The translations under genes and the position numbers were made by a program. A stretch of 31,862 nt of DNA from a virus: the IMG/VR virus record IMGVR_UViG_3300045131_002106, positions 1 to 31,862 of that record, one strand, 5' to 3'. This document shows, in pieces, positions 168 to 28,168 of the stretch. The notes under the pieces were generated by a model. The model was not told the DNA's origin. It did no database searches and worked only from the letters and a program-made list of their open reading frames with translations. How positions within the stretch are numbered: the first letter of the stretch is position 1; every line of letters begins with the position of its first letter.

Positions 168-486
168 TTAATCTTCAAATTCTACTTTTTTTATTTCTAC
201 TCGATTCTCTGGATAAACCTTAAAGAAGGCAGCGACTTTCTCTGCATCTTTTTTCGAAAAATGCAGCCCTGCCCACTTACTATGACTAACAAGATATTTC
301 CCTTCGGATAAATCGAGCATCTTTCCGTTAACATAAACCTCATAATCGAACATTCCAGGAACAGCCTTCTTCGAACATTCCAGGAACAGCCTTCTTCGAA
401 CATTGAACAGTCCCTATGGCCGATTGAGTATTTTTCCCGGTAAAAGTAAATCCGACATCGCATCTCTTCACTCTGATTAACTTCAT
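168..486 (-). pseudogene. MKLIRVK-family small gene split by a 25-bp duplication
   Basis: The frame opened by the ATG at 486 reads MKLIRVKRCD and continues to KAVPGMF, then shifts into EEGCSWNVRL and stops at 340. The second half (ATG at 353, stop at 168, 61 aa, starting MFDYEVYVNG) is in another frame. The junction is a tandem 25-bp duplication at 346-395. Removing one unit in silico joins ...KAVPGMF directly to DYEVYVNGKM and gives one open frame of 97 residues. The simplest reading is a recent or phase-variable inactivation. Alternatives are re-initiation at 353 or programmed slippage. Function is unknown. Confidence 0.75.
346..404. repeat. 25-bp tandem repeat, two full copies plus 9 bp
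   Basis: The unit at 346-370 is repeated exactly at 371-395, and its first 9 bases recur at 396-404. Because 25 is not a multiple of three, each added or lost unit changes the reading frame of the overlapping small gene. Confidence 0.92.
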
Positions 487-506
487 TTTAACCTTCCTTC
501 TTATAC

Positions 507-537
507 AACTTGTATTTAAGTCTTTCAAATCTGCGTT
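507..537. repeat. 31-bp repeat, copy A, in a degenerate coding remnant
   Basis: Bases 507-537 are identical to 2674-2704. On the minus strand both encode NADLKDLNTS just before a MKLIRVK-type gene. The surrounding 487-642 has no convincing start codon but is open in the frame leading into the gene at 486. It contains DSSEIERDSAEADINL, matched near copy B by DSAAIQRDYAEP. This looks like the remnant of a duplicated 3' gene end. The true Mu-F gene ends similarly (ERDTKDLN). Confidence 0.8.
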
Positions 538-642
538 TTTAGGCGGTAAATTCTGCGATTCCGTCAGAAGCCATAGATTAATATCAGCCTCTGCGGAATC
601 GCGCTCTATCTCGCTGGAATCAACGTTTTCGACTGTCTGTCT

Positions 643-894
643 TTAAATAGTTACTAAAACCCGTTCTGCCCTGAAGATTTCTTTTTTGGCATCTTCAATA
701 GCAATGTTTTTTGTTCTAAAGTCGACGCGATGAATCTTGTCTCCTTTTGCATTAGTAGCTTGATAATCCCATCTCTTCCATTTTGAATAAACGACTTCGA
801 TTTTCCAGTCGCCATAAGTTATTGTCTCGACGACTTTGTTTCGACCCCAACCGACTTTCATGTCGTCATTACATTTGACTTTGATTAACTTCAT
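643..894 (-). CDS. Small protein of the MKLIRVK family
   Basis: 83 residues starting MKLIKVKCNDD. The ATG at 894 follows AGAGG at about 7 bases. The remainder alternates charged and aromatic residues (GDWKIEVVYSKWKRWDY) and ends in an amphipathic helix-like segment, suggesting a compact alpha/beta fold. It lies in the leftward head operon between two other family members. No known domain was recognised. The shared start with otherwise unrelated bodies suggests a common tag or binding strand, which is inference. Confidence 0.75.
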   Translation of the reverse strand: MKLIKVKCNDDMKVGWGRNKVVETITYGDWKIEVVYSKWKRWDYQATNAKGDKIHRVDFRTKNIAIEDAKKEIFRAERVLVTI

Positions 895-942
895 TTGGTT
901 ACCTCTTTGGTTTATAGATCATATTTTTGATTTTGAATAACT

Positions 943-1209
943 TCACGATAACTCCCCGGTCAATATTTTGCGAGTGATTTCGTTTTTTGTGAAAGTCCAT
1001 TTATGCAGAGAGTAAACCTTATCAATGGTTAGTTTTTGAACTTCAGAATTATCCAGTCGCTCGTTATTTATGTTTTTTCTGATTATACCATAGTGCATCC
1101 GGTATAGTTGCATGAACATAATAAGCTCTTTCCGTTTCTCTTCCTGTTCGACGAATTTGCCGAAAGCTTCCCAGTTGTCGTCCTTGCATTTAACTCTGAT
1201 TAATTTCAT
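943..1209 (-). CDS. Small protein of the MKLIRVK family
   Basis: 88 residues starting MKLIRVKCKDD. The ATG at 1209 is preceded by AAAGGTGG and begins one base after the Mu-F-like gene ends, so the two are probably translationally coupled. The body is helical and basic (EEKRKELIMFMQLYRMHYG) and unlike the other family members beyond the start. No signal peptide or membrane segment was seen. Function is unknown; position implies expression with head genes. Confidence 0.75.
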   Translation of the reverse strand: MKLIRVKCKDDNWEAFGKFVEQEEKRKELIMFMQLYRMHYGIIRKNINNERLDNSEVQKLTIDKVYSLHKWTFTKNEITRKILTGELS

Positions 1210-1210
1210 C

Positions 1211-2359
1211 TTAACCCACCTTTCTTTTCATTTGATTTAAATCTTTAGTATCGCGTTCTAATTCCGGAATCACCGGATCGGCGAAACATCTACAGTTTAT
1301 CGCCATTCCTGGCGCCCCGTCTGGCGGCGGTTGCCTGAACGGTTTACCATTCGGAGCCAGCGGAGGATTCGCCATTCTATGGAAGAGATAAAATTTTCCT
1401 TGTCTGGACCAGTGATCTCCATGGGCGCGACTGTTCGGGTCAGCATTGGGATACAGCCCGCTCGGGTTCCCGGCCACCCGCCTGTCATTTGCATTATTCC
1501 ATTCATAACCAATTATCCCTATATTCTGCATCCGGAGATGACTGAATGTTGCAACCGCTTTCGATGTCTGGTCGCGAGCGATCAGTTTCGCCTTCAGCTT
1601 GGTTGTTCCCGTCAAATCTTGTATCGCTTGAATCAGCCCGCCTTCGAACTTCCGCTGTCCGGTCGCGTTCTGAATCGTCATCTGCTTAATATCCGAGAAG
1701 AACTTTTCCGGCAGAGATTTAATCAAATTCACATTCGCTTCGACCTGGGCTTCGTATGCTTTGGTCAAACCTTTCTCTGCCATGATGTTTAATATATTTA
1801 TTCCTGCCGCTTTTGCAAACTGCTTTCGGAATTTATCTTTAGCTTCTTTGAATGTCTTCTGCGCTTCCTGCTCTGCGATGTTTTGATAAGCATACAGCAG
1901 GTCTTGATATTTCCTCTGCAAGCGTTCGAGGCGTTCGTTGAACTGTTTCATTATCGGGTCGGATTCCGGAACCCGCTTGCCAATCTTGTCGGCATAATCT
2001 TCGACCGCAGTTTCGGGAATCAGCCATTCGCCTTCTGGGGTTTTAATCGCTTCGGGAATTAACCCTTTTCTGATGTCTTGCAACACCCGCGATTTAAGCG
2101 TTGAAATCAAGCGGGCGACTTCATAAGCGGTATAATACTTGAGAGCGTCCTTAACCGCAATCAGCTCCGGCAGTCCGGCAAATTCTTTCTGGGTCTGCAC
2201 TTGTTGGCGCTGACGTTCATTCATCTTCAGGACGAGCGGTTTGAGTTCCCGCTCATAGTCGGCATTCATTCGCTTCACCAACTCCATCAACTTGCGACGG
2301 AAAGAAGCGACATGGGAGTCGCTTAATATTATCGGGTTGAATTTGATTTGTGAAGCCAC
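1211..2359 (-). CDS. Mu gpF-like head protein with HTH_17-like segment
   Basis: 382 residues from a GTG at 2359, with GGAG about 10 bases upstream. The C-terminal third (about residues 255-370) has the Mu gpF/SPP1 gp7 minor head protein pattern: ARDQTSKA, GYEWNNANDRRV, an R-H-HW stretch, PPDGAPG and the closing CRC. Such proteins sit with the portal and assist head assembly or DNA ejection (family knowledge). Residues 74-126 are unusual: YTAYEVARLI, then RKGLIPEAIKTPEGEWLIPE and DYA, resembling the MerR/excisionase HTH_17 fold with its wing. A coiled-coil-like stretch spans about 130-185. The gene follows the portal with one small gene between. The Mu-F call is firm; the HTH call is inference from pattern. 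Confidence 0.85.
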   Translation of the reverse strand: MASQIKFNPIILSDSHVASFRRKLMELVKRMNADYERELKPLVLKMNERQRQQVQTQKEFAGLPELIAVKDALKYYTAYEVARLISTLKSRVLQDIRKGLIPEAIKTPEGEWLIPETAVEDYADKIGKRVPESDPIMKQFNERLERLQRKYQDLLYAYQNIAEQEAQKTFKEAKDKFRKQFAKAAGINILNIMAEKGLTKAYEAQVEANVNLIKSLPEKFFSDIKQMTIQNATGQRKFEGGLIQAIQDLTGTTKLKAKLIARDQTSKAVATFSHLRMQNIGIIGYEWNNANDRRVAGNPSGLYPNADPNSRAHGDHWSRQGKFYLFHRMANPPLAPNGKPFRQPPPDGAPGMAINCRCFADPVIPELERDTKDLNQMKRKVG

Positions 2360-2363
2360 GAAT

Positions 2364-2654
2364 TTATACTCCGTTTGAATAACGCCTGATTAATAGCTTG
2401 ATTTTATTGGATGTATAATCCACTCTGTTCTCGGTAACAATCGCGCTCGCAAGCGCCTCTCCGGCGGACGAATTAAGGAATTTGTTCACCTTGCTGTCGT
2501 CCCACTCGCCCTCTTTCTTAACGATGTCGAAGATTCTTTTAAAAGCACCTGCGGCGAGTTGCTCATCTTTCAATATGCTGTTCGCTTTGGCATAGAAGCC
2601 GGTGCCCTTCTGCATATCGATTCCGTCGCACTTTTTCACCCTGATAATCTTCAT
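2364..2654 (-). CDS. Small protein of the MKLIRVK family (KKCD variant)
   Basis: 96 residues starting MKIIRVKKCDG. The ATG at 2654 follows AAAAGGAGATGAAAG. It lies between the portal and Mu-F genes and stops 4 bases before the Mu-F GTG. The body looks largely helical (ANSILKDEQLAAGAFKRIFD and NSSAGEALASAIV). The DNA just upstream plus the first codons form a module also found before the genes at 486 and 1209. Function is unknown. Confidence 0.75.
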   Translation of the reverse strand: MKIIRVKKCDGIDMQKGTGFYAKANSILKDEQLAAGAFKRIFDIVKKEGEWDDSKVNKFLNSSAGEALASAIVTENRVDYTSNKIKLLIRRYSNGV

Positions 2655-2669
2655 CTTTCATCTCCTTTT

Positions 2670-2795
2670 CTATAACTTGTATTTAAGTCTTTCAAATCTG
2701 CGTTCTTGTCCGTCGAATTCGCGTCGAAACACGAAACGCGATACTATATGCGGGCTCTGCGTAATCGCGCTGTATTGCCGCGGAATCGCTTGTTT
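2670..2795 (-). other. In-frame open extension after the portal stop; coding remnant
   Basis: Downstream of the portal TAA (2796-2798) the same frame stays open for 41 codons to a TAG at 2670. The segment lacks a start codon. In another frame it encodes DSAAIQRDYAEP, similar to the remnant at 487-642, and it ends in the shared 31-bp repeat. Relic of a duplicated gene end is more likely than functional readthrough. Confidence 0.4.
2674..2704. repeat. 31-bp repeat, copy B
   Basis: Identical to 507-537. It lies just upstream of the MKIIRVKKCD gene, as copy A lies just upstream of the MKLIRVKRCD gene. The conserved DNA module therefore includes upstream sequence, ribosome binding site and first codons. 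Confidence 0.88.
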
Positions 2796-4238
2796 TTAAG
2801 CCTTCGCCTCGAACACTTCATCTCCTGTTTGGTTATATAGTTCATCCGCGATGTCGAGCGCCTCATTGAGCCCGACTTCGTTTTCTGCTTTCTCGGTCTC
2901 GAGACGCTGGACATCTTCTTTTGTAAAGTTCTTAAATGTCTTCCGCTCCAGTAATTCCAGTCGCGCAATCTTCTTGTCGATAAAACCAGCATCGCAAGCC
3001 CTGGCCAACATATCGATGAAGGCGCTGTCCTTCTCCTGCTTCTTACCGGGCGACTCGCGCTCAAGTTCGGGGAAGGTGATATTGAAGTCTGCTGGCATTA
3101 ATTCGTTGAAATAAGAGGGGATAATCCACTTCTTAAAGATGTCGATCAAATGCGGCTTAATTCGATTGTTCTGATACGCTTCTAACATATCGTAATAATT
3201 GCCCAAGTCACCCTCGCCGGTCGCCGTCAATCCCTTCGCTGATTCGCCAACCAGTTTCGTTACCGGGATTCCGGTCGCGGCAGAACAGATGATATAATAG
3301 CGTTCCAAAATCGGGTCGAGCCCGCTTAATGCGCCGAGTTCCAAATTGGATAATTCTTCGCTCGCGTCAATAATTGCCATATTGTTATTTGACATCTGAT
3401 AGTTCAGAATATTCATACGCTCCAGGAATGCAGAGCGTGACTCGGGGTCGGCGACAATATTGATTAAATCTTCGACCTTCATCACCGGGACGCTTGCCCG
3501 GAATAGAAGTGTCGCGATACTGTTATCTACCGTTCCGGCGTTCCTGATTGCGTCGTATGCAATGCCAAGCACCGAAGCGCCCCAATACATATTCCGCTGA
3601 CGTTCATACCACGGCATCCACTCGCCGCCGAATCTCTGTATCCTGCTTCTATGGACAACCGAGCCAGTGATGAAATTCGAATTGTCTTTTCCGCTCTGCA
3701 AGTTAATCATCCCGGCAGAACCAATCGTATATGTTTCGGGATATAAATAATTATCTTTGAGCGGGTTCATCAAATTGATTTCGGAAGCATAACATTGCCA
3801 GGCATCGAACATCTGAAGCGTCAACAATGTCTTGCCGGGGAGGAAATCAGGAATAGGGTTTCTCATTGCGCCCCAAGTGTCATCAGTCAATGCAGTAATC
3901 ACCGAGCCGCCGAATGTTCTTTCTGATTTAAGGCCGCGAAGCATCAACTCCTGGAGATTGAGAAATTCGGTGTATTTGTTCAGCTTCTCAATCTTCTCCG
4001 GTTCCCAGGACGGACATGATACTGTCCAGCCTTTCTTGAGCGCCTCTTCCGGAATCAAGTCAACGATTCTGCGCCCGAGCCAACTGCCGTATATCGCGGA
4101 GAGCTCTTGATATCCATAGAAGGAAGATGCAGTATGGAATGACTGTTGAAGTCTATCTGAACCATAATTCATGTTCGCGGTCAGATTGACGAGCGAGTCA
4201 GTTTCTTTTCTGATTAATTTTATTGATTTGTGGTTCAT
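2796..4238 (-). CDS. Phage portal protein (DUF1073 type)
   Basis: 480 residues from an ATG at 4238. The N-terminal third matches the DUF1073 portal pattern: YGSWLGRRIVDLIPEEALKKGW (shown in part; residues about 49-70), then FGGSVITAL, and centrally VHRSRIQRF, SVLGIAYDAIRN and SAATGIPVTKLVGESAKGL. The latter is the typical stem/wing region before TATGEGDLGNYYD. Portal subunits form the dodecameric ring at one capsid vertex through which DNA is packaged and ejected. Length is normal for the family. The gene is followed by Mu-F, the usual portal-minor head protein order. The ribosome binding site is weak (CGGAAA). Major capsid and terminase large subunit genes are not visible and probably lie outside the window. 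Confidence 0.9.
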   Translation of the reverse strand: MNHKSIKLIRKETDSLVNLTANMNYGSDRLQQSFHTASSFYGYQELSAIYGSWLGRRIVDLIPEEALKKGWTVSCPSWEPEKIEKLNKYTEFLNLQELMLRGLKSERTFGGSVITALTDDTWGAMRNPIPDFLPGKTLLTLQMFDAWQCYASEINLMNPLKDNYLYPETYTIGSAGMINLQSGKDNSNFITGSVVHRSRIQRFGGEWMPWYERQRNMYWGASVLGIAYDAIRNAGTVDNSIATLLFRASVPVMKVEDLINIVADPESRSAFLERMNILNYQMSNNNMAIIDASEELSNLELGALSGLDPILERYYIICSAATGIPVTKLVGESAKGLTATGEGDLGNYYDMLEAYQNNRIKPHLIDIFKKWIIPSYFNELMPADFNITFPELERESPGKKQEKDSAFIDMLARACDAGFIDKKIARLELLERKTFKNFTKEDVQRLETEKAENEVGLNEALDIADELYNQTGDEVFEAKA

Positions 4239-4249
4239 AGGGTTTCCGA

Positions 4250-4465
4250 TTATTTGCGTTTGATCGCCTTGTTATAATAAGCCACCGCTTCTCTTTGGTC
4301 GTCGGAACCGAACCATAAATCGTTCTTGTAGAAGACCAAGAAGCGGAATGTTCCATCTGGCTCAGGCACTTTGTCCAGGAACCAATTTCCTTGATTCTTC
4401 AATGTTACGGTGCCGTCTGTATCCATTGTATGAACATCGGCGCATTTGACTCGAATTAGTTTCAT
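4250..4465 (-). CDS. Small protein of the MKLIRVK family
   Basis: 71 residues starting MKLIRVKCADV. The ATG at 4465 follows AGAGGCCGAAAT. A longer upstream frame exists but has no better start. The body contains GNWFLDKV, FRFLVFYKNDLWF and a C-terminal helix (EAVAYYNKAIKRK). It lies immediately upstream of the portal gene, so late co-expression is likely. Function is unknown. Confidence 0.75.
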   Translation of the reverse strand: MKLIRVKCADVHTMDTDGTVTLKNQGNWFLDKVPEPDGTFRFLVFYKNDLWFGSDDQREAVAYYNKAIKRK

Positions 4466-4475
4466 ATTTCGGCCT

Positions 4476-4772
4476 CTATTTATTAAGGTTCTTAGAAATA
4501 TAATCGCCGACCGGTCCATACTTACCGGTTGCTGGTTTTGCCGGGAGTATATATTTGACGATTCCGGGCTCTTTATATCCGCCTCTTGCCTCAAATTTAT
4601 TATCTTTGGTTAAAATCCCTAAATCAAAAAGCCGCTTGCCAACCTCGTCACTGGCTTGATAGCGTTCTTTGTCATATAACCGAAGCCACTGTTTCGCCAA
4701 AGACATTGCACTTGCAATATCTTCTGCATCGCCGTCGCACTTCACCATCTTAACTGTTCTGAGAATTTTCAT
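4476..4772 (-). CDS. Small protein of the MKLIRVK family (variant start)
   Basis: 98 residues starting MKILRTVKMVKCDGD, an expanded version of the family start that keeps VKCD. It overlaps the upstream gene by 4 bases (ATGA). The body is helical (AEDIASAMSLAKQWLRLYD), followed by a glycine/proline-rich end (PATGKYGPVGDYI). Function is unknown. Confidence 0.7.
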   Translation of the reverse strand: MKILRTVKMVKCDGDAEDIASAMSLAKQWLRLYDKERYQASDEVGKRLFDLGILTKDNKFEARGGYKEPGIVKYILPAKPATGKYGPVGDYISKNLNK

Positions 4773-5008
4773 ATCCTCTCTCCTGCTTTTAATTTTTTAT
4801 AGATATCTATCCACTCGGATAATTTCAATTCGCCGACGCTGTAGACCGGAACCGAACTCGAATACCAGCCCGCCGCATCGCCGCCATAGAAGTAGTAATA
4901 GCCCCGGCCGTGCGTCAGCCGCTCTTTCGCACCGATACGCTTCAGCTCTGCGTTGACGGTGGCGACAGTCGCTTCTTCGTCGGTGCATTTGACTCGGATT
5001 AGTTTCAT
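4769..5008 (-). CDS. Small protein of the MKLIRVK family with GYYYFYGGDAAGW motif
   Basis: 79 residues starting MKLIRVKCTDE. The ATG at 5008 is preceded by AAGG at about 11 bases. The body has a helix (VNAELKRIG), the motif RGYYYFYGGDAAGWYSSSV and a C-terminal SEWIDIYKKLK helix. From memory, this GYYYF-GG-(T/S)SV pattern with a following L..W helix is common among small unnamed phage proteins. Here it is joined to the family start, which supports mix-and-match assembly of these genes. Function is unknown. Confidence 0.75.
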   Translation of the reverse strand: MKLIRVKCTDEEATVATVNAELKRIGAKERLTHGRGYYYFYGGDAAGWYSSSVPVYSVGELKLSEWIDIYKKLKAGERI

Positions 5009-5010
5009 AA

Positions 5011-5289
5011 TTAATTTGCCTTGATTTTTAGATAAGTCGAGAACGGATATTTTGATTTAAATTGTTCCAGCGTTTCGACATCGAGTTGATTGATTCTGAG
5101 AAACTTTCCTTTTCTCTTTTCGATTTCTTTCATCCCGGCAGATTTTGCATTCGACTCGCTGGATGCTTCGATCGCGAGTGTCTTTATTGTATAAAAGCCG
5201 GGGCCAACATTATCTACACCCTCTAATCTATACTCAACCCCATAAACCTTCGTCCCTGCGTCCTTACATTTAACCTTAATCAATTTCAT
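5011..5289 (-). CDS. Small protein of the MKLIRVK family
   Basis: 92 residues starting MKLIKVKCKDA. The ATG at 5289 comes 3 bases after the ferritin-like gene stops and follows CCGGAGTTGAAAG. The body has a predicted strand pair (VYGVEYRLEG, GFYTIKTLAIEA) and a basic middle. It is the family member nearest the promoter at 5764-5792. Function is unknown. Confidence 0.75.
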   Translation of the reverse strand: MKLIKVKCKDAGTKVYGVEYRLEGVDNVGPGFYTIKTLAIEASSESNAKSAGMKEIEKRKGKFLRINQLDVETLEQFKSKYPFSTYLKIKAN

Positions 5290-5292
5290 CTT

Positions 5293-5697
5293 TCAACTCC
5301 GGTTTATTTTGAGTGTTCTTTTCTGCGGAGCAGTATATTCGGCTTCTTTATTCTGCTCTTCGCTCTGCCCGGCTTCTTCTGCATTCTCATCTGTCGCAGT
5401 TGCCTTGAGTAGTTTCTCCGCTTCTTTGCGTCCCTGCTTGCAAGCGTCATCATCTGCGGGATCTAATAACTGCAAGACATGGCGGAACTCGCCGACATGG
5501 ACAAGTTCTTCCGTCGCTATCGCCCGCAGTATTTTCGCGGCTTCTTGATGCTGTGGCTCGCTGGCTTCGGCGAGTTGTATATAAAGATTCGCCGCATCCA
5601 TTTCGGCGCATATCATCTGCCGGATAGCCCGAACGAGTTCTTCTTTCGTCAGCTTCCGATCGACCCCGATTGCAGAGAAGGCATTTGAAAATTGCAT
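5293..5697 (-). CDS. Ferritin-like protein resembling encapsulin-associated ferritin
   Basis: 134 residues from the ATG at 5697, chosen over an upstream frame because AAGGA lies 10 bases before it. Residues 17-80 read KEELVRAIRQMICAEMDAAN, then LYIQLAEA, and ILRAIATEELVHVGEFRHVL. This has the ferritin-like iron ligand pattern (E32, E63/E64, H67, E70) and closely resembles the ferritin domain fused to encapsulin shells of Pyrococcus type (comparison from memory). The C-terminal tail is acidic and then basic. It is the first gene after the promoter at 5764-5792, so it heads the visible head operon. Possible roles are iron handling in the capsid or a purely structural four-helix part. No capsid gene is visible, so the link to a shell is inferred. 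Confidence 0.75.
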   Translation of the reverse strand: MQFSNAFSAIGVDRKLTKEELVRAIRQMICAEMDAANLYIQLAEASEPQHQEAAKILRAIATEELVHVGEFRHVLQLLDPADDDACKQGRKEAEKLLKATATDENAEEAGQSEEQNKEAEYTAPQKRTLKINRS

Positions 5698-8350: not shown

Positions 8351-8710
8351 TTATACCGCGCTATCTTCGCAGAAATTATGGGGTATCCCAAAGATCATAA
8401 CCTGCAACCCGAGCTTCTTCGCAAGTGCAAGCTCTTGACAAGCCCCGTTCGAATTTTCCCAGCCGTCGAGAAGCAGAATGGCGTCTGCCATAATCGCGAT
8501 CGTTTCCAAGCAAGTGTCTAACAGAATCGAATATGGCACCGGGACATAATTCGCAGTCTTATCGCAGAACATTAACTGCGGCAGTTCTGCCGGGTTGATT
8601 GGATTATGCCCTTCTTCGCGAACCCGCTTGGCAGCTCTATGAAATTCCGGGAAGTTGAAATTATCCATTCCGCTCATCGGCCCTGAGATATAAATGTTCA
8701 TTCTGTTCAT
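8351..8710 (-). CDS. DUF4406 / nucleoside deoxyribosyltransferase-like protein
   Basis: 119 residues. The ATG at 8710 overlaps the terminase-like stop (ATGA). The sequence MNIYISGPMSGMDNFNFPEF with later DAILLLDGWENSNGACQELA matches the DUF4406 pattern, a Rossmann-like relative of nucleoside 2-deoxyribosyltransferases. The GPM-GM loop and the GW-SNGA-E segment correspond to the substrate-binding loop and catalytic Glu region of that superfamily (family knowledge). Phage copies are common and mostly untested. Given the base-exchange chemistry at 18-23 kb, a nucleotide-related role is possible but not shown. Confidence 0.8.
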   Translation of the reverse strand: MNRMNIYISGPMSGMDNFNFPEFHRAAKRVREEGHNPINPAELPQLMFCDKTANYVPVPYSILLDTCLETIAIMADAILLLDGWENSNGACQELALAKKLGLQVMIFGIPHNFCEDSAV

Positions 8711-9426
8711 CCTGTTATGGCTTGATTAATTGTTTTGATTCGCACCGGGATCGCTTTGTCGGCTTCATCGAATTGCGGGGCTCTGATAGAATTCATATGA
8801 ACATGAATCACCGGTGCTTGCAAAGGAGTCCCGCCGGGGCCTGACACCTCTTTCTGAATCGGGGCTTTAAATCCGAGTATGTCACAAATCGCAATTCCGA
8901 CCGCTTTCTGGTCGATCAGTTTGGTGACGACTTTTTTGTGTCCGGTTATCATTCCGTTCGCATCATACACTGGCAGGAACTCCACTTCTTTCGCCGCCGC
9001 CAAAAATCCATTCTTCTTCGCTGTATCGTAATCTTCGAAGTCGCCAAGATCCGGAGTGAACATCATTACCATTTTTTCGAGAATCGCTTCTTTGGTGATT
9101 ACATTCGTTTTGATATACTTCTTCGTCAAGTGTTCGAAGATGCAGTCCTCGAGATAGCGGACGACTGGTTCTACTGTCCGGAATATCTGACAACCCCGGA
9201 CTGCGGCGTTCCTCGCATCGATCCCGGCCAGCAGTGCCGCCTCAGTATTCGAATTAGTCTGGAACCAATATGGGATAAATATCTTCTCTCTATACGTCAG
9301 CGAGTCATAAACCTTCCGTATCGCCACCGGCATCTGCGGAATCGTCTTCGCCTCGAATCGCTTCAATTCCTTCTTCTCTTCTATCCGCATTGTATCCAAG
9401 TTAAATTTGAAATCTGAGCTATTCAT
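8707..9426 (-). CDS. Probable terminase small subunit
   Basis: 239 residues. The ATG at 9426 lies behind AGAAAAGAG. The segment RKVYDSLTYREKIFIPYWFQ then TNSNTEAALLAGIDARNAAVRG looks like the terminase small-subunit helix-turn-helix. It is followed by a helical linker and DLGDFEDYD, with a C-terminal part QKAVGIAICDILGFKAPIQK. Small subunits bind the packaging site and regulate the large subunit motor. The large subunit is not visible in the window, which weakens the assignment. Expressed from the promoter at 9487-9515. Confidence 0.6.
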   Translation of the reverse strand: MNSSDFKFNLDTMRIEEKKELKRFEAKTIPQMPVAIRKVYDSLTYREKIFIPYWFQTNSNTEAALLAGIDARNAAVRGCQIFRTVEPVVRYLEDCIFEHLTKKYIKTNVITKEAILEKMVMMFTPDLGDFEDYDTAKKNGFLAAAKEVEFLPVYDANGMITGHKKVVTKLIDQKAVGIAICDILGFKAPIQKEVSGPGGTPLQAPVIHVHMNSIRAPQFDEADKAIPVRIKTINQAITG

Positions 9427-18332: not shown

Positions 18333-19079
18333 ATGAGTGAAGTTACATTGTCCAAAATGATCGAAGCCGCAATCGACATCAACGAACTGTTGGCTTTCGA
18401 CGCCCCAATCAAAGTTGAAGGAAAAGATGTTGTCCAGATCACGGCGCAGATTGAAAAGAAGCAGAAAGGCGATGACGCTTTCCTCGCAACCGATTTTGTT
18501 CCCGGCGCCAAAAACTCCCTGAAGATTGCAACCGTGGCCGCATTAAAGGCAATGAAAGTCACAATGCCGAAAATCTGGGCGGACCGCTTGGCCGATGCTA
18601 TTGAAGACGGTGTCGTTGATTACGAAGCTCCTGCGAAAGACAAGTCCAGCGAAGTGCAGGCCAAGGGCAAGGCAAAAGTAGACGAAGCCAAGGCGAAATC
18701 CAAGCCGGCGGCCCCGAAAACAGAAGTGAAGGGCAAAAAAGTCGACAAGAAGACAGATGCGGAAGTCGAAGCAGAAGTAATGAAAGAAGTCGAAGGCGAC
18801 AACGACAGCGAAATCGAAGCTGAAGTCGTCAAAGAGGTCAAAAAAGCCGCGAAAGATGCGAAGCTCAGCAACAAGAGCATCTTCGGTCATAACCGCTCCG
18901 CAATTTCCGGCAAGATTGACGAAGAGTTGATTGCAAACGGCGGGACGCTTGAGACGATTGCGGCCGCGGCTGGATGTGATACTGCTCGCGCCAAAGCCCA
19001 TATCAATCACCTTGTCGCGAATAAAGGCGCAGAAATCACCTTGGACGAAGAGGGCAATTATGCTATCGTCCTCGCCTAA
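18333..19079 (+). CDS. Protein with Lys/Ala/Glu linker and C-terminal HTH-like end
   Basis: 248 residues starting MSEVTLSKMI. The ATG at 18333 follows AAGGAGGCTAAA. Residues 1-90 are an unrecognised alpha/beta domain. Residues about 95-180 are a low-complexity, highly charged linker (AKAKVDEAKAKSKPAAPK) with an internal repeat (VEAEVMKEV and IEAEVVKEV). The end has a helix-turn-helix-like pattern (GGTLETIAAAAGCDTARAKA then HINHLVANKG and a wing-like EITLDEEGNY). This suggests a DNA-associated protein, perhaps binding phage DNA during replication or modification. First gene of the operon, followed with 20-bp overlap by the radical SAM gene. Confidence 0.6.
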   Translation: MSEVTLSKMIEAAIDINELLAFDAPIKVEGKDVVQITAQIEKKQKGDDAFLATDFVPGAKNSLKIATVAALKAMKVTMPKIWADRLADAIEDGVVDYEAPAKDKSSEVQAKGKAKVDEAKAKSKPAAPKTEVKGKKVDKKTDAEVEAEVMKEVEGDNDSEIEAEVVKEVKKAAKDAKLSNKSIFGHNRSAISGKIDEELIANGGTLETIAAAAGCDTARAKAHINHLVANKGAEITLDEEGNYAIVLA

Positions 19080-20073
19080 TATCGTCAAGGCAGAGATGCT
19101 GTGGACGCGAAAGTGTCCACTTCATTGCGACTACTGCTCGATGGCAACAGGTCAACCCAATACTCGCGATTTAGAGTATTGGGTTGAGACTGCAAGACAG
19201 CTGAAAAAGTTGAATTGCAGTTTCGCCGCATTCTATGGCGCAGAGCCCCTTTTCGACGACATTGACAAGCTATCCAGAACGATCCAATACTTCGAGAGTA
19301 TTGGAATTGCGACCACGGTTATCACTAGCGGCTTCGTATCGAGCCTGACATCGAAACTCGATGTTCTTTGGTCGCGCAATTTGCGGAGCTTGAGTATGAG
19401 TTACGATATTTTGCCGCTCTGTGACAGTTCTAAAATCAAGACATCGAAGGCGCTGGAGACATTGCAGTATTTTCAATCACTTGGAAAATACCGGGATGTC
19501 GCGGCCATTGCAACATTGACCCGCAAGAATTTTCGCGCTCTTCCGGAAAGTATAAAAACTTTGTCGAAGATGAATATTTGGACTTTTTTCGATATGATAC
19601 ATTCGAACAGGAATCAACCGGGCTCAAAAGTTAAAGACAGCGAGATAACTCGCGAACTGCTTTTTGCCCCGGAAGATTTTAATGACTTGGCAGAAGTATT
19701 ACGCGAGGTGCTTGCACTCAAGCGCGAAGGAATGCTTTGTCATGTTTCGGAATTGTTTATCGATAAAGTTATGGCAAACGATTTCGAAGTTCTGCGGAAA
19801 TATAATTGGCATTGTTGCGATCATCTCAGTTTCCCGGCATGGGTTTCGATAGACTGCGACGGAACGGTGTCTTGTTGCGACGACTACAAGAGCGATAAAA
19901 TTAAGATCTATTCAAACAGAATAGCCGAAGATTTTCAACTGTTTTCCAAACTGTATCGGGAATCTGCGCGAGCGGAGTGCTCCGGATGTCTTTGGAACAC
20001 TCATTATGATGCCCATATGATTAAGGAAGGCCGATACGGAATCGGCAATTATATTCACGGAGAAAGAGAATGA
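19060..20073 (+). CDS. Radical SAM protein with SPASM-like C-terminus
   Basis: 337 residues. The ATG at 19060, inside the previous gene end, follows GAGGG. The radical SAM signature C-x3-C-x2-C is RKCPLHCDYC (C19, C23, C26), binding a [4Fe-4S] cluster. GAEPL replaces the usual GGEP. The C-terminal part has HCCDHL, the SPASM-like SIDCDGTVSCCDDY and ECSGCLW, probably ligating an auxiliary cluster. QueE, the radical SAM step of 7-deazaguanine synthesis, is normally shorter and lacks these extra cysteines, so this is either a divergent replacement or an enzyme modifying a later intermediate. It lies in one operon with methyltransferase, QueC, FolE and DpdA genes, implying action on the modified base. 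Confidence 0.85.
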   Translation: MLSSSPNIVKAEMLWTRKCPLHCDYCSMATGQPNTRDLEYWVETARQLKKLNCSFAAFYGAEPLFDDIDKLSRTIQYFESIGIATTVITSGFVSSLTSKLDVLWSRNLRSLSMSYDILPLCDSSKIKTSKALETLQYFQSLGKYRDVAAIATLTRKNFRALPESIKTLSKMNIWTFFDMIHSNRNQPGSKVKDSEITRELLFAPEDFNDLAEVLREVLALKREGMLCHVSELFIDKVMANDFEVLRKYNWHCCDHLSFPAWVSIDCDGTVSCCDDYKSDKIKIYSNRIAEDFQLFSKLYRESARAECSGCLWNTHYDAHMIKEGRYGIGNYIHGERE

Positions 20074-20621
20074 AAAAATTGAACCTCGGATGTGGCGACG
20101 ATATCTTGATTGGATACGACAACTGTGACATCTTTCCTTGTCAGCCGTCTGTTATCCAAGCAGACATCTTGAATTTAAGAGGAATCCCGTCGGACAATTA
20201 TGCGGAGATTAAATGTTGCATGGTTTTGGAACACGTCCATATCGACTTGGTGCCAACAGCACTGTATCAGATATCGAGAGTTCTTGCTCCAGGCGGGTTT
20301 GTGGACATTACTGTTCCAGACTTCGATTATTTCGTGCAGAAGTATTTGAACAATAAAGGCAAGTTAACGAAGACGATGAACTTCCATAACTTCTACAATA
20401 TTACCTACAATCTTCTCGCACCAGAAATCGATCCGAAAATAAGAACTCATCAAGCGTTATTCACCGAAGAGTTCCTGACGATTTTGCTGGTTGACGATGG
20501 ATTTGTTAATGTCGAAACAGTCAGGAAAGCTGGCGGGATTTTGACTGTCTGGGCATTTAAGCATGACGGGAGTTCAAGCACTTTAAAATATGATACTTCT
20601 ACGGAGAGAGAAAATGAATGA
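20070..20621 (+). CDS. Class I SAM-dependent methyltransferase
   Basis: 183 residues. The ATG overlaps the radical SAM stop (ATGA). Motif I is KLNLGCGDD, an acidic residue after GYDNCD ends strand 2, ADILNLRGIP gives the motif II region, and MVLEHVHIDLVPTALYQISR followed by VLAPGGFVDITVPD matches the COG4627-like methyltransferase pattern. Such enzymes transfer methyl groups from SAM. The substrate is unknown. Position suggests the 7-deazaguanine base or a precursor. A 7-deazaguanine methyltransferase (DpdM) has been described in phages, but I understand it has a different fold, so this would be a separate solution. Confidence 0.82.
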   Translation: MKKLNLGCGDDILIGYDNCDIFPCQPSVIQADILNLRGIPSDNYAEIKCCMVLEHVHIDLVPTALYQISRVLAPGGFVDITVPDFDYFVQKYLNNKGKLTKTMNFHNFYNITYNLLAPEIDPKIRTHQALFTEEFLTILLVDDGFVNVETVRKAGGILTVWAFKHDGSSSTLKYDTSTERENE

Positions 20622-21579
20622 AGTTCTTTTATTTTCGGGCGGCATAGATTCTTATGTTGCCTGGCATTACTTGAAGAAACCCAAGACTGTTTATTTCGAT
20701 CTGGGAACACCTTATTCCTCACGCGAGGCTCAAGCTGTATTGCAACTCGTCCCAAACACTGTGATCGACAGGAGCCTTGTTCTCGGCGATAGACAGGCGG
20801 GAATTAATGCCTACATCCCTTATCGAAACCTTTTCTTGGCAATGTTGGCATCTAAATACGGAGACAAGATTTGGATTGCTGGATTAAAAGACGACATGGT
20901 TTCAGACAAAACTCCTGCCGCTTTTTTCGCGATGGAGTCTTGTTTAAACTTTATCGACAAGAAGAAAGTCGTAATAGACAGTCCGTTCTGGAATACAACG
21001 AAATCGCAAGTTGTTGAGTGGTATATTAATCAGGCTCTCGACAAGAACGAGTTGCTGAAAACAATCTCCTGCTATAATGACAAGGAGCAGACAAATTACT
21101 GCGGCACTTGTCCAAGCTGTTTTAGAAAATGGAACGCCTTGCGCGAAAATGGAATTGACATAGAATTCTATAATCCGAAGTTAATGCAGGAATATATCCA
21201 AAGCGCCGAGAACCTTAAATACGACCCGGAGAGGAATTTGTCGATTGTTAAGTGTTGCTCAAATTATACTTGCAAGCGGATTTTTCACTTCGACATCGAT
21301 GGGGTTATTACCAACGAAACGGAAGGATGGGATTATGCGGCCCGGACACCGAATACAGAAGTAATCGACAAAATTAAGGAATTGGCAAAGGGTGGAAATC
21401 GAATAGTGTTCTACACTGCTCGTTTCTCCTGCGACCGCGAAGTGACAGAGCAATGGTTGGCGAAACACGAGATTCAATATTCGAATATCATTTTTGATAA
21501 ACCCGGATATGATTATTTCGTGGACGACAAGGCATACAATTCAATTCACGAACTTTTCAAAAACAAAGGAGCTGTATGA
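20614..21579 (+). CDS. queC: QueC-HAD fusion, 7-cyano-7-deazaguanine synthase-like
   Basis: 321 residues starting MNEVLLFSGG. The ATG at 20614 follows GGAGAGAGAAA. Residues 1-185: PP-loop SGGIDS (8-13) and a zinc site from C153 plus CGTCPSC (163-169), as in QueC, which converts 7-carboxy-7-deazaguanine to preQ0 using ATP and ammonia. Residues 222-315: HAD phosphohydrolase, with FHFDIDGVI (nucleophile D227, D229), YTAR (268-270) and a YFVDDKA motif IV. Family QueC is about 220-230 residues, so the HAD domain is an addition. The HAD half might remove phosphate from a deazaguanine nucleotide (inference). The gene overlaps its neighbours by 4-8 bases, supporting one pathway. Confidence 0.88.
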   Translation: MNEVLLFSGGIDSYVAWHYLKKPKTVYFDLGTPYSSREAQAVLQLVPNTVIDRSLVLGDRQAGINAYIPYRNLFLAMLASKYGDKIWIAGLKDDMVSDKTPAAFFAMESCLNFIDKKKVVIDSPFWNTTKSQVVEWYINQALDKNELLKTISCYNDKEQTNYCGTCPSCFRKWNALRENGIDIEFYNPKLMQEYIQSAENLKYDPERNLSIVKCCSNYTCKRIFHFDIDGVITNETEGWDYAARTPNTEVIDKIKELAKGGNRIVFYTARFSCDREVTEQWLAKHEIQYSNIIFDKPGYDYFVDDKAYNSIHELFKNKGAV

Positions 21580-22511
21580 AAACAAGATACTCAGCCGCGC
21601 AATTTTATGAAGACGTCGCTGTCGTTGCCAAATCAATCCACGCCAAAGGCAGACAGTATTCGCATATCTATCCGATTCCACAAGGTGGAATTCCTTTTGG
21701 AATGGCATTGGCAAGAGAGCTGAAGGCAATGTTTGGCAAAGCAGTTCATATTCTCGACGAAGATGAATACGAAAGCTTAAGAACCCAAAACCAAGAAATT
21801 TTAGTTGTCGACGACATTGCTGATAGCGGCAGAACACTCATGCCCTATAAAGACAGATGCGACACCGCAGTCCTGCACCTGAGGGCGTCCTGCAATTTTA
21901 TCCCAACTTATCATGCGAATTTCGTGCGAGATACTGCTTGGATTGAGTATTGGTGGGAAAATAAAAAGAGCGACATCGAAAGTCACATTGTTCGCCAAAT
22001 CGAATACATTGGAGAAGACCCAAATCGAGAAGGATTGCGCGAAACTCCTGCCCGGGTTGTGAAATCATGGAGCAAGCTGTTTGGCGGATATAAAGCATCT
22101 CTTGAAGATGTTTTCAAGACGTTCGAAGAAGGAGCTTGCGATGAGCTCGTTATCCTCAAGGACATCGAATTCTACAGTCAGTGCGAACATCACTTATTGC
22201 CGTTTTATGGTAAAGCCCATATTGGATACATCCCCGATGGCAAAGTGATTGGCGTCAGCAAGCTGGCAAGACTGCTCGAAGTATTCTCTCGCAGAATGCA
22301 AATTCAAGAAAGGATTGGAGAGCAGGTTACGACCGCGCTGATGGAGCACTTGCACCCGAAAGGCGCAATTTGTGTTCTTGAGGCTCAGCATCACTGCATG
22401 ACGTCTAGAGGGGTCGAAAAACAAGACTCGGTCATGGTGACGAGCTCAATCAAAGGCGCCTTTAAACAAATCGAAACAAGAGCGGAATTCCTCTCTTTGA
22501 TAAAGGCATAA
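21576..22511 (+). CDS. folE: Phosphoribosyltransferase-GTP cyclohydrolase I fusion
   Basis: 311 residues. Residues 1-128: type I phosphoribosyltransferase, with PQGGIP and the PRPP loop ILVVDDIADSGRTL (75-88). The late DTAWIEYWW resembles the base-binding DTWIEQPW end of guanine-xanthine Gpt enzymes (recalled). Residues 136-310: GTP cyclohydrolase I, with IGEDPNREGLRETPARV, CEHHLLPF (zinc ligands C203, H206), GVSKLARL and QHHCMTSRG (C274). FolE makes dihydroneopterin triphosphate, the first step toward preQ0. The stand-alone family length is about 190-220, so the first domain is extra. It might recycle guanine freed by base exchange into GMP, or make a deazaguanine nucleotide; both are inference. 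Confidence 0.9.
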   Translation: MKTRYSAAQFYEDVAVVAKSIHAKGRQYSHIYPIPQGGIPFGMALARELKAMFGKAVHILDEDEYESLRTQNQEILVVDDIADSGRTLMPYKDRCDTAVLHLRASCNFIPTYHANFVRDTAWIEYWWENKKSDIESHIVRQIEYIGEDPNREGLRETPARVVKSWSKLFGGYKASLEDVFKTFEEGACDELVILKDIEFYSQCEHHLLPFYGKAHIGYIPDGKVIGVSKLARLLEVFSRRMQIQERIGEQVTTALMEHLHPKGAICVLEAQHHCMTSRGVEKQDSVMVTSSIKGAFKQIETRAEFLSLIKA

Positions 22512-22515
22512 GATT

Positions 22516-23310
22516 ATGAATATTTTCATGGACAGCGGAGCGTTCTCTGCGCTTAATAAAAAGCAGAAAATCAACTTGACGGAATATATGGATTTCCTGA
22601 AAAGGAATATGAAGTATTTTTCCGCTTATGTTGTTCTCGATGTTATCGGCGATGCCGTTGCAACTTGGAAGAACCAGGAAATAATGGAGAAGGAAGGGCT
22701 TTCCCCGCTCCCTGTTTATCACTTTCGGGATAACCCAAAATATTTAGACAGGTGTTTGGAATACGATTACTTCTGTCTTGGAGGTATTGCAGGAACACCG
22801 ACGAACAATGTTCGAATTCCTTTCTTCAACGACTGCTTCGACAAGATTTGTAATGAGGAAGGGATACCGCAAAATAAAGTTCACGGATTGGGAATGACGT
22901 CTTTTTCATTAATCCGGAGATATCCGTTCTACAGCGTTGACTCTACAAGCTGGTTGATGAATGGGGCAATGGGCGGGATAATTGTTCCAATAAGAAGAAG
23001 AGGAGTTTTCGTATATGACGAAGATCCGTTCAAGATCGCCGTATCTGGAACAAGCCCGCAGACTGGAAGAGATTTGCATTACGACTCGCTCAATATGGAT
23101 GCCAAGAAAAATGTCGACGATTATTTAAAGTTCAAAGGCTATTTCCTTGGACGGAAAGACGTCGACAATAAACACGAAGAAGCAGGGCTTTACTCCAGTC
23201 ACTACGAGCGGATGAAATTGAATATGGAGTTCTTTATTGATTTCCGCAATTCATTGCCGAAATGGCCTTGGCCCATTAAATTTCACAAACAGAAAAGGAG
23301 GTTGTGGTGA
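22516..23310 (+). CDS. dpdA: DpdA-like DNA 7-deazaguanine transglycosylase
   Basis: 264 residues. A TGT-like TIM barrel: MNIFMDSGAF (D6 matches the conserved DSGGF Asp), YVVLDVIGD, PLPVYHF, CLGGIAG (matching GG-A-G), HGLGMTS and YSVDSTSW (D142 as candidate nucleophile). It is shorter than tRNA TGT (about 370) and lacks the TGT zinc site, as DpdA proteins do. DpdA exchanges guanine in DNA for a 7-deazaguanine, protecting phage DNA from restriction (established for the family). FolE and QueC genes immediately upstream, in one overlapping operon, support this over a tRNA enzyme. The subfamily and the exact base cannot be told from sequence alone. Confidence 0.85.
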   Translation: MNIFMDSGAFSALNKKQKINLTEYMDFLKRNMKYFSAYVVLDVIGDAVATWKNQEIMEKEGLSPLPVYHFRDNPKYLDRCLEYDYFCLGGIAGTPTNNVRIPFFNDCFDKICNEEGIPQNKVHGLGMTSFSLIRRYPFYSVDSTSWLMNGAMGGIIVPIRRRGVFVYDEDPFKIAVSGTSPQTGRDLHYDSLNMDAKKNVDDYLKFKGYFLGRKDVDNKHEEAGLYSSHYERMKLNMEFFIDFRNSLPKWPWPIKFHKQKRRLW

Positions 23311-23492
23311 TATTTTATTTTGCAGGTTCAGTCGAGGCAGAGACGTTAATGCCGAAGATTAAAGAGGACCCGGAAGCCGGGGTGTTATTTACATTCTTCG
23401 ACGTTCCGGATAAACGGTTTGCGCAATTAAAAAAAGAAATAAGAGACAAAAAACAAAACAAGGAGACGAAAGATGGAACTGATAGCAAGTGA
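23307..23492 (+). CDS. Small protein after DpdA, possible barrel fragment
   Basis: 61 residues. Start GTG at 23307, 5 bases after AGGAGG (a GTG one codon earlier is too close). It overlaps the dpdA stop and the clamp gene start. The N-terminus VIFYFAGSVEAETLMPKIKE resembles the first strand of some phage TGT/DpdA-type proteins as I recall, so it could be a barrel remnant or a small partner of DpdA. The end is lysine-rich. Unconfirmed. Confidence 0.55.
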   Translation: MIFYFAGSVEAETLMPKIKEDPEAGVLFTFFDVPDKRFAQLKKEIRDKKQNKETKDGTDSK

Positions 23493-24474
23493 TTTGAAAC
23501 TGCAACTGGACAAGCTGAATGCCTTGCTCTCTGCGAAGGGACTTGTTGAAAACGCCAATAAATTTGCTTTCGATCAAGAAGGGATTTATGCCTTCAACGG
23601 AGAGGTATTTATTGCCACAATTTTCCCGACAGATTTGTATGGGGCGGTTGAGGGTGATATTTTCAACAAGTTAATCAACAAGCTCGGCGCCAACAAAATC
23701 GAAATTGTTCTCGATAAAGAAGAACTCGTTATCAGAAAAGGTCGGTCGGAATCAAGAATGGCATTTGATACTGAAATTAAATGCCCTATTGATTTGTCGG
23801 TAAACAAGTGGAAAAATCTTCCCGAAGATTTCGTTGAGGCAATTAACGTCTGTTCATATACAACCGGGTCCGATTATACTGACATGAGAACGGTCTGCAT
23901 ACATTTGAAAGGAGATGTCTGCGAAGCAAGTGATGTCTTCCGCATTACTATTTTCAAAATGAAGTCTGCAATCAAAGACGAGCTTTTTATTCCGAATGAC
24001 ATCCTGCCGTTCTTCAACAAGTCGAAACCGATTAGATATTGCGTGGTCGATAACTGGACATATTTCGAAGACTTGGACGGGACAATAATTGCCCACCGCC
24101 AGCCGACGTTTGAGGGAAAATATCCAAACTTGCAAGAGAAAATATCTTCGCTCAAGGATTTTCATTTGGTGGAGCTTCCTGAGAAGTTATACGAGTCGCT
24201 GGATAAAGCGTCGATATTCTTGGATGGCAAATTTGAAGGCGATAAGTTCGTTTCGGTTACTTGCAACGATGGAACGCTGACGCTTGACAGCAAAGCGACG
24301 GGGCGCTGTTATAAAGACCAGATGAGAATCAATTTTAAGGATCATATCAAGTTCGATGTGAACCCGACCCACCTTATGCAGATAATGGAGAAGGCGAGCA
24401 TTGTTCACGTCAATTCGTCAATCATTAAAATCGACAACCCGAATTGCACTTATGTCGCGGCATTAATTGAATAA
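23473..24474 (+). CDS. dnaN: DNA polymerase sliding clamp (beta-clamp-like)
   Basis: 333 residues. The ATG at 23473 follows AAGGAGACGAAAG. Weak but consistent with DnaN: three domains of helix-strand pattern, KFAFDQEGIYAFNGEVFIAT in domain 1, AFDTEIKCPIDLSV in the linker, and a C-terminal NPTHLMQIMEKA with DNPNCTYVAALIE resembling the final strand of beta clamps. The usual length is about 365, so it is slightly short and very diverged. The clamp encircles DNA and tethers the polymerase. Position directly before the Pol III alpha gene and near a clamp loader supports it. Confidence 0.75.
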   Translation: MELIASDLKLQLDKLNALLSAKGLVENANKFAFDQEGIYAFNGEVFIATIFPTDLYGAVEGDIFNKLINKLGANKIEIVLDKEELVIRKGRSESRMAFDTEIKCPIDLSVNKWKNLPEDFVEAINVCSYTTGSDYTDMRTVCIHLKGDVCEASDVFRITIFKMKSAIKDELFIPNDILPFFNKSKPIRYCVVDNWTYFEDLDGTIIAHRQPTFEGKYPNLQEKISSLKDFHLVELPEKLYESLDKASIFLDGKFEGDKFVSVTCNDGTLTLDSKATGRCYKDQMRINFKDHIKFDVNPTHLMQIMEKASIVHVNSSIIKIDNPNCTYVAALIE

Positions 24475-24483
24475 GAGGGAATT

Positions 24484-27192: not shown

Positions 27193-27220
27193 TTGCATTT
27201 TGGCCTAACAGTATTATATT
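27193..27220 (+). promoter_or_regulatory. Promoter TTGCAT-N16-TATATT for the clamp-loader operon
   Basis: -35 TTGCAT (27193-27198), a 16-base spacer and -10 TATATT (27215-27220). The -35 directly follows the polymerase stop codon. It shares AACAGTATTATATTATA and the following GGTAACA with the promoter at 18251. Confidence 0.78.
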
Positions 27221-27250
27221 ATAACGGTAACAGGAAAAGGATAAGCAGAC

Positions 27251-28168
27251 ATGGAACTCTACAAAGCGTATCGCCCTCGCAAGTTCGAGGAAATTGTTGG
27301 CAACGAATCAACTATTAAGTCGATTCGGCAGAAGGTCGAAAAAGGAACACTCCCTCACTTTATTCTATTGACGGGGCCGAGCGGATGCGGCAAGACAACG
27401 ATTGCTCGCATATTGCAGAAGGCGCTGAAATGCAGTTCGGACGACTTTTTGGAATTTAACTGCGCCAACCGAAACGGGGTTGAGCTTGCTCGTGAGATTG
27501 AAAAGGATTATCGCAAGAAGCCGATTGGTGGTGGGATTCGAATATATTACCTCGATGAAGCTCATTCACTCACAGCGGCTTGCGAAAGCAGTTTATTGAA
27601 ACCGCTCGAAGATACCCCGGAACATTGTTATTTCATCTTCGCGACAACCGACCCGCAAAAGATATTGAACACTATTAAGACGAGGGCAACTGAATACAAG
27701 TTGTCTGCACTGACTTCAAAGCAGATTAACGAATTGCTGACCGAAGTATGCAATACAGAGGGGCGCAAGGTGTCTGAGGAGATTAAGCAAGATATATTTG
27801 ATTGCTGTGGCGGGAGCGCCCGGCTTGCTTTGGTTTTGCTCGACAAAATAATCGACCTCGATGAAGCGGAACAAAAAGACACGCTGGAAGAGGCGAAGCG
27901 TTCCGAAGCCGGAGCGTTCCAATTATTGCAAGCGTTAATGGGTTGGGGCTCTTCGGGCTGGAGTGCGGTTGCGAAAGCACTTGCAAATAACACCGAAGAT
28001 CCTGAAGGAATTCGCCGCTATTTGCGAGCCTGCGCCATGAATCAATTATTAGACCCGGCCAAAGCGAAGAACCATAAAGTGTCATTCGCGATACTGCAAT
28101 GCACCGATGTCTTGTTTTATGACAAGCCCGCATTGGTTCAGGCTTGCTATGATATAGTCAACGGCTAA
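27251..28168 (+). CDS. dnaX: Clamp loader AAA+ ATPase (DnaX/RFC-like)
   Basis: 305 residues starting MELYKAYRPRKFEEIVGNES, the characteristic DnaX/RFC start. Walker A GPSGCGKT (42-49), Walker B IYYLDEAH, sensor 1 FATTDP, and NTIKTRATEY where DnaX usually has the SRC arginine-finger motif (Thr-Arg-Ala here). Sensor 2 is GGSARLAL. The length is near RFC small subunits and shorter than gamma, with no tau extension, matching the missing tau-binding end of the polymerase. It probably opens and loads the clamp at 23473. No delta or delta-prime subunit was seen, so it may form a homopolymer with host help. Confidence 0.92.
   Translation: MELYKAYRPRKFEEIVGNESTIKSIRQKVEKGTLPHFILLTGPSGCGKTTIARILQKALKCSSDDFLEFNCANRNGVELAREIEKDYRKKPIGGGIRIYYLDEAHSLTAACESSLLKPLEDTPEHCYFIFATTDPQKILNTIKTRATEYKLSALTSKQINELLTEVCNTEGRKVSEEIKQDIFDCCGGSARLALVLLDKIIDLDEAEQKDTLEEAKRSEAGAFQLLQALMGWGSSGWSAVAKALANNTEDPEGIRRYLRACAMNQLLDPAKAKNHKVSFAILQCTDVLFYDKPALVQACYDIVNG

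Follow-up and report, generated by a model that had tools for sequence, protein, structure and literature searches.

Encapsulins are regarded as phage capsids that cells have domesticated and that short peptides load with cargo, and the same type of cargo in phage head operons, combined with peptide tags resembling those of the phage's own head system, would show this cargo logic in viruses. Here we asked what an encapsulin-type ferritin-like gene does amid the head genes of a phage, and whether its product might travel in the phage's own head. The gene lies in a viral stretch of 31,862 nucleotides (IMG/VR record IMGVR_UViG_3300045131_002106), which we call the window. Such a locus would allow one to test for iron-handling enzymes in virions, a question linked to the 'Ferrojan horse' hypothesis on phage iron.

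The window gene encodes an EncFtn-type ferritin

Three peptide stretches (EELVRAIR, AEMDAANLY and EELVHVGEF), all present in the minus-strand open reading frame at 5293-5697, underlay a preliminary description of the product as an encapsulin-type ferritin-like protein. The ATG start of this frame agrees with the start of its orthologue, MAKFADSFSG, and a plus-strand reading of the same interval was rejected, the frame being interrupted by stops. In phmmer searches of PDB sequences, the protein matched P. furiosus EncFtn best (5n5e, E=1.7e-13), followed by 2e0z, in which a ferritin is fused to encapsulin (E=2.9e-13), and 7s8t, the EncC of M. xanthus (E=6.7e-10); judged from sequence, its likeness to encapsulin ferritins is far above chance. 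The Pfam Rubrerythrin model matched above its cut-off (29.9 versus 22.8 bits), and the models of named subfamilies scored below theirs: NCBIfam EncB_fam (NF058679; E=8.8e-19, 67.6 bits, curated cut-off 90) and NCBIfam 'encapsulin-associated ferritin-like' (ferrit_encaps; E=2.4e-12, 46.8 bits, curated cut-off 125). No match to Pfam EncFtn-like PF22277 was listed for the window ferritin, and a T4-like relative (L046) passes the cut-off of that model. Because these subfamily cut-offs were not reached, we filed the protein as EncFtn-type, outside EncB_fam, ferrit_encaps and PF22277. A search of PHROGs gave no convincing family for it.

An alignment-based AlphaFold2 model (pLDDT 87.5), compared with known structures by Foldseek, predicts a short helical hairpin as opposed to a full four-helix single chain. 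Foldseek ranked 5n5e first in the PDB (E=8.8e-5, TM 0.83 by target length, 1.8 A, 44% identity), with R. rubrum EncFtn also among the matches at a lower rank. The best match by both sequence and fold is thus an encapsulated ferritin, not an unrelated four-helix protein, and the preliminary label holds: the window gene encodes a real EncFtn-type protein of the ferritin superfamily.

The ferroxidase centre of EncFtn is built from Glu32, Glu62, His65 and Tyr39 of two chains, and the iron store is the encapsulin shell, not EncFtn itself (eLife 18972). All four ligands are kept in the window ferritin as E32, Y39, E64 and H67, the last two numbered +2 because of a two-residue insert. None of the four varies across 38 aligned viral and cellular sequences, so the loss of iron ligands in relatives, against which the preliminary description had cautioned, is not what the alignment holds.

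The ferritin lies in a phage head operon

The proposed placement in a phage head operon was confirmed, since the genes for the terminase small subunit, the portal and a MuF-like protein all lie on the strand of the ferritin gene (Table 1). In the direction of the ferritin, the terminase small subunit comes first, followed by a number of small genes and a cell-wall hydrolase and then by the ferritin itself; four small ORFs separate the ferritin from the portal and one separates the portal from the MuF-like gene, after which more small ORFs lead to the window edge. The record stops short of the protease and capsid genes, and the neighbouring capsid gene to which the preliminary description had pointed is therefore beyond the window; in a relative, a protease and a major capsid protein (MCP) are found in the same operon. 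A search for an encapsulin shell gene (PF04454) gave no match in 26 viral records, among them that of the window; these records are perhaps fragmentary.

Table 1 Coordinates of the ferritin gene, its parts and the surrounding head-region genes in the window
Feature	Position	Strand	Basis or remark
Small ORF, start MKLIRVKR	340..486	-	ORF translation
Small ORF, start MKLIKVKC	643..894	-	ORF translation
Small ORF, start MKLIRVKC	943..1209	-	ORF translation
MuF-like head morphogenesis protein	1211..2359	-	PHROG E=2.4e-43
Small ORF, start MKIIRVKK	2364..2654	-	ORF translation
Portal protein (Phage_portal_3)	2796..4238	-	E=7.6e-68
Small ORF, start MKLIRVKC	4250..4465	-	ORF translation
Small ORF, variant start MKILRTVKMVKC	4476..4772	-	ORF translation
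Small ORF, start MKLIRVKC	4769..5008	-	PHROG 9154 body from residue 13
Small ORF, start MKLIKVKC	5011..5289	-	ORF translation
EncFtn-type ferritin-like gene, 134 aa	5293..5697	-	ATG at 5697, stop at 5293
C-terminal tail, residues 100-134	5296..5400	-	Not in most cellular relatives
RTLKI motif, residues 127-131	5305..5319	-	Candidate targeting peptide
Stretch with ferroxidase ligands	5497..5604	-	Invariant in 38-sequence alignment; ligands per eLife 18972
H67	5497-5499	-	Ferroxidase ligand
E64	5506-5508	-	Ferroxidase ligand
Y39	5581-5583	-	Ferroxidase ligand
E32	5602-5604	-	Ferroxidase ligand
Terminase small subunit (Terminase_2)	8707..9426	-	Domain match

A single-sequence scan of viral contigs with the window ferritin confirmed nothing, and viral relatives were recovered by a portal query followed by a profile search. 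Two near-identical IMG/VR contigs (L003 and L004/L005) carry a portal 63% identical to that of the window. In L004/L005 the ferritin is immediately upstream of the portal, and the L004 operon runs in one direction as terL, ferritin, portal, MuF, protease and MCP, the head maturation protease and major head protein being downstream of portal and MuF. MuF and portal scans for further relatives of the window phage returned only the same two contigs and one distant portal. Other ferritin genes lie within portal/MuF/protease/MCP modules (L006, L010 and L021) or, in T4-like contigs, near head-closure, sheath-stabiliser and sheath genes; at least one structural gene was recognised, by comparison with a small reference set, in the available DNA of 20 of the 38 viral loci listed. 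Two loci (L007 and L009) were given no weight because no structural gene was found in them and they may be host DNA. Among isolated phages, an EncFtn-type domain was found only in Eggerthella phage LE2-3, inside a 948-aa protein encoded between portal and capsid genes. Matches to coliphage ribonucleotide reductase were rejected as chance-level and belonging to a different di-iron family.

Such placement invites a structural reading, in which the protein belongs to the structure or assembly of the head or neck, its EncFtn ring acting as connector or chaperone close to the portal, and iron binding is secondary. The ferritin directly before the portal in L004 or beside portal and MuF in L006 and L021, and the T4-like copies beside neck genes (Hc2, sheath stabiliser), fit this reading, which we nevertheless judge improbable: a purely structural role needs no such constancy as that of the ferroxidase ligands, the place of the ferritin within the module varies, and most related phages may not need it.

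Several further observations concern the neighbourhoods and the rest of the window. In six contigs of large phages (L012, L023, L025, L026, L039 and L041), which carry T4-like-group ferritins or are L012, the ferritin adjoins a DUF5661 protein, which in many cases begins with a targeting-type peptide, and at L046:584-1087 an N-terminal segment similar to DUF5661 is fused to the ferritin; the DUF5661 protein is a possible functional partner of the ferritin. In L019 and L021, the proteins just upstream of the ferritin both start YDPILCMNVPD. The plus strand of the window encodes, clustered at 18931-23310, a radical SAM protein, QueC and GTP cyclohydrolase I, suggesting 7-deazaguanine modification of the phage DNA; within this interval, the product of 22516-23310 (plus strand), without a Pfam match, may resemble a DpdA-type transglycosylase. 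The phage's own sliding clamp and DNA polymerase III alpha subunit are encoded at 23473-28168 (plus strand), together with what we judged by eye to be a clamp-loader-like ATPase.

The C-terminal tail ends in a motif that recurs among head-region proteins

Past residue 99, the window ferritin carries a 35-residue extension. Its end agrees with that of the orthologue (QKRTLKINRS in the window, TKRILKLSK in the relative) and the linker before it has diverged; with these two orthologues as its only carriers, the C-terminal motif is conserved across no more than two sequences. Two known kinds of loading peptide are absent from the window ferritin, namely the TVGSL-type cargo-loading peptide, the tail ending instead in KRTLKINRS, and the T4-type N-terminal MKxFxxFIxE-like peptide.

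Seven small ORFs of the window (340-5289, minus strand) have a common start, MK[LI]I[RK]VK, followed by unrelated bodies. Five small head-region ORFs and one tail-gene ORF (20895) of L004 start alike, one of them as MRILKV; the same contig encodes a protease with KTLKI at its start and ARLLKLNGGK at its end, and a portal whose last residues are KKIIKVKNENN. A pattern of the form [KR]-phi-phi-[KR]-phi is found at the termini of eight window proteins versus two interior sites, and in L004 at ten terminal sites (nine proteins) versus one interior site. This pattern was chosen post hoc, after inspection of the data, and a second test was therefore run from which the small ORFs were left out, which partly controls for the choice. 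With the pattern derived from the small ORFs, 3 of the 13 remaining L004 proteins (ferritin, portal and protease) match at the C-terminus, with P=1.9e-6 under a composition null. The window ferritin has Thr where this pattern has Ile, Leu or Val and matches only when Thr is allowed, and the C-termini of the window portal and MuF-like protein do not match it. The position of the motif also differs, being C-terminal in the ferritin and N-terminal in the small ORFs. In phages with a tail-less ferritin, the motif is not at the termini of the head-module proteins.

Chance as the origin of the terminal motif is disfavoured by the terminal versus interior counts, by the composition null and by the tail-less phages. 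We likewise disfavour a nucleotide-level signal behind the repeated starts, given that the sequence upstream of them varies and that different ORFs spell the tag with different synonymous codons, a sign that selection acts on the peptide. The start tag seems to be a module, as PHROG domains follow it from residue 13 in one small ORF and from residue 15 in another, and it is possibly a head- or virion-targeting tag, apparently undescribed, that may direct proteins into the heads of a phage group unlike T4. That a tag common to capsid-region proteins also ends the ferritin suggests that the virus may load the ferritin into its own head. A different start, MxxKIAxELLKLAKxL, is found in neighbouring small ORFs at L044:8941-11634 and near the N-terminus of the ferritin itself, and is perhaps a third tag type.

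T4-like ferritins carry a targeting-type start

The internal proteins of T4 are diverse except for a conserved capsid-targeting sequence that takes them to the scaffold core (PMC3012670). Eight T4-like ferritins have a T4-style start by pattern (for example MSKFKDYITES, MGKFKDYLTEA and MNKFKDYMTEN), and these starts align without gaps with MKTYQEFIAEA, the start of T4 IPII/IPIII. The same kind of start is frequent in the ORFs neighbouring the ferritin in T4-like contigs, and one of these contigs (L031) has genes for a capsid protein of the gp23 type and for an S77 prohead protease of the T4 type. The T4-like ferritins with a putative targeting N-terminus are, as far as their sequences tell, an independent parallel to the window tag.

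Phages probably acquired the ferritin from cells more than once

A genome scan returned at least 562 cellular relatives of the window ferritin, of which the best 80 were kept; most of these 80 are stand-alone proteins of about 100 aa, usually without a tail. A TVGSL-type cargo peptide is present in 6 of the best 80 of at least 562, with an encapsulin neighbour in 5 of those 6. Among the matches listed, the core of the window ferritin is 45-52% identical to this very large cellular stand-alone family. The cellular sequences (L053-L132) form a widespread bacterial and archaeal EncFtn-like family, mostly without an encapsulin neighbour.

A tree of 85 rows and 101 columns, in which few deep forks are resolved, joins the window ferritin to that of L005 (support 98) and then to that of L006 (85), next to a cellular clade made up mainly of stand-alone proteins. 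This clade also contains some of the other phage copies, and the T4-like copies group with P. furiosus EncFtn. The label 'virus' needs nine changes on this tree, and well-supported branches require no fewer than four of these. It thus looks as if phages repeatedly captured cellular ferritin, in several separate acquisitions.

The preliminary description had suggested that the locus may be a related or ancestral arrangement. Its 'related' part stands as a functional analogy, namely a ferroxidase with a terminal tag beside a capsid module; its 'ancestral' part finds no support. An ancestral arrangement would mean that encapsulin shell and ferritin both descend from a phage head operon in which a ferritin was already present, and it would accord with the phage-capsid origin of encapsulins put forward in the literature (PMC8346489) and with the presence of the same protein type beside an HK97-lineage capsid module. 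We nevertheless regard it as very improbable: the phage copies are spread over several distinct branches, many of which lie within or next to the cellular stand-alone family, an encapsulin-family shell was not found in the records of these phages, and the AU test marginally rejects (p=0.048) a topology that unites the window clade and the encapsulin-cargo sequences.

A possible cargo of the phage head

We propose, with confidence and doubt evenly balanced, that the gene encodes an EncFtn-type di-iron ferroxidase that is carried as prohead cargo via its C-terminal peptide and protects DNA. The ferritin would be synthesised together with the head proteins, and pairs of helical hairpins would place a metal site between two subunits before assembling into a metal-bridged ring. 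The C-terminal KRTLKINRS, as a linear motif common to portal, protease and small head-region proteins, would then give access to the prohead. In the particle, or after delivery with the DNA, the enzyme would oxidise Fe(II) at the expense of O2 or peroxide, and would thereby keep Fenton chemistry from the DNA. Since the iron of EncFtn is stored by an encapsulin shell and none is found here, the phage's own capsid would be the only shell of this lineage on hand.

The main rival is a host-derived cytoplasmic ferroxidase or peroxide detoxifier that is expressed late by way of the head operon and guards the cell from outside the virion, its tail being neutral. Many cellular relatives have no adjacent shell gene, so a shell neighbour is not obligatory and a cytoplasmic role is possible; the closeness of the core to the stand-alone family, and the tail-less ferritins of L006, L010 and L021 within head modules, favour it too. 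Against it, the motif of the tail is matched at termini of portal and protease in the relative and at those of the small ORFs, more than one kind of phage has its ferritin in a head or neck module, and T4-like ferritins have a targeting-type start, and on this evidence we consider it rather unlikely.

Returning to the head-cargo reading, our inference is that ferroxidases of the encapsulin type are packaged by phages into their heads. More tentatively, several phage lineages may load EncFtn via terminal tags, in which case the virion would be a transient iron nanocompartment convergent with encapsulins and the group of the window phage would use a new tag system (MKLIRVKC.D starts, KR-phi-LK-phi ends).

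Comparison with known systems

The closest structural counterpart is P. furiosus EncFtn (PFC_05175; 5n5e, 2e0z), which like the window ferritin has the hairpin fold and the same ligands, at about 44% identity. It goes with an encapsulin shell, to which it is fused in 2e0z, whereas the phage ferritin is separate and has another C-terminal tail. M. xanthus EncB/EncC (EncB_fam) are similar over most of the length, including the EncC start NPF..RK.T, but the window ferritin falls short of that family's cut-off and is without the TVGSL-type peptide. The nearest cellular relatives among the matches listed are the stand-alone MPEFGNPFSG ferritins of bacteria and archaea, in most of the best 80 of which no encapsulin or phage head context was seen. 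With T4 IPII and IPIII, the likeness is a short terminal peptide common to otherwise different proteins of one phage; the motif of the window phage differs (MKLIRVKC.D starts, KRTLKI at the C-terminus) and is a candidate targeting peptide.

Phage-encoded members of the ferritin superfamily also include the DPS and Mn-catalase of Gratiaviridae (PMC8008677) and gp217, a predicted ferritin of a Vi01-like phage (PMC10892097); in the passages that describe them, neither the EncFtn type nor a head operon nor a shared tag appears. The open-access papers searched yielded no description of EncFtn in phage head operons. What is new here is that the phage copy of a common stand-alone cellular ferritin core carries an added C-terminal tail.
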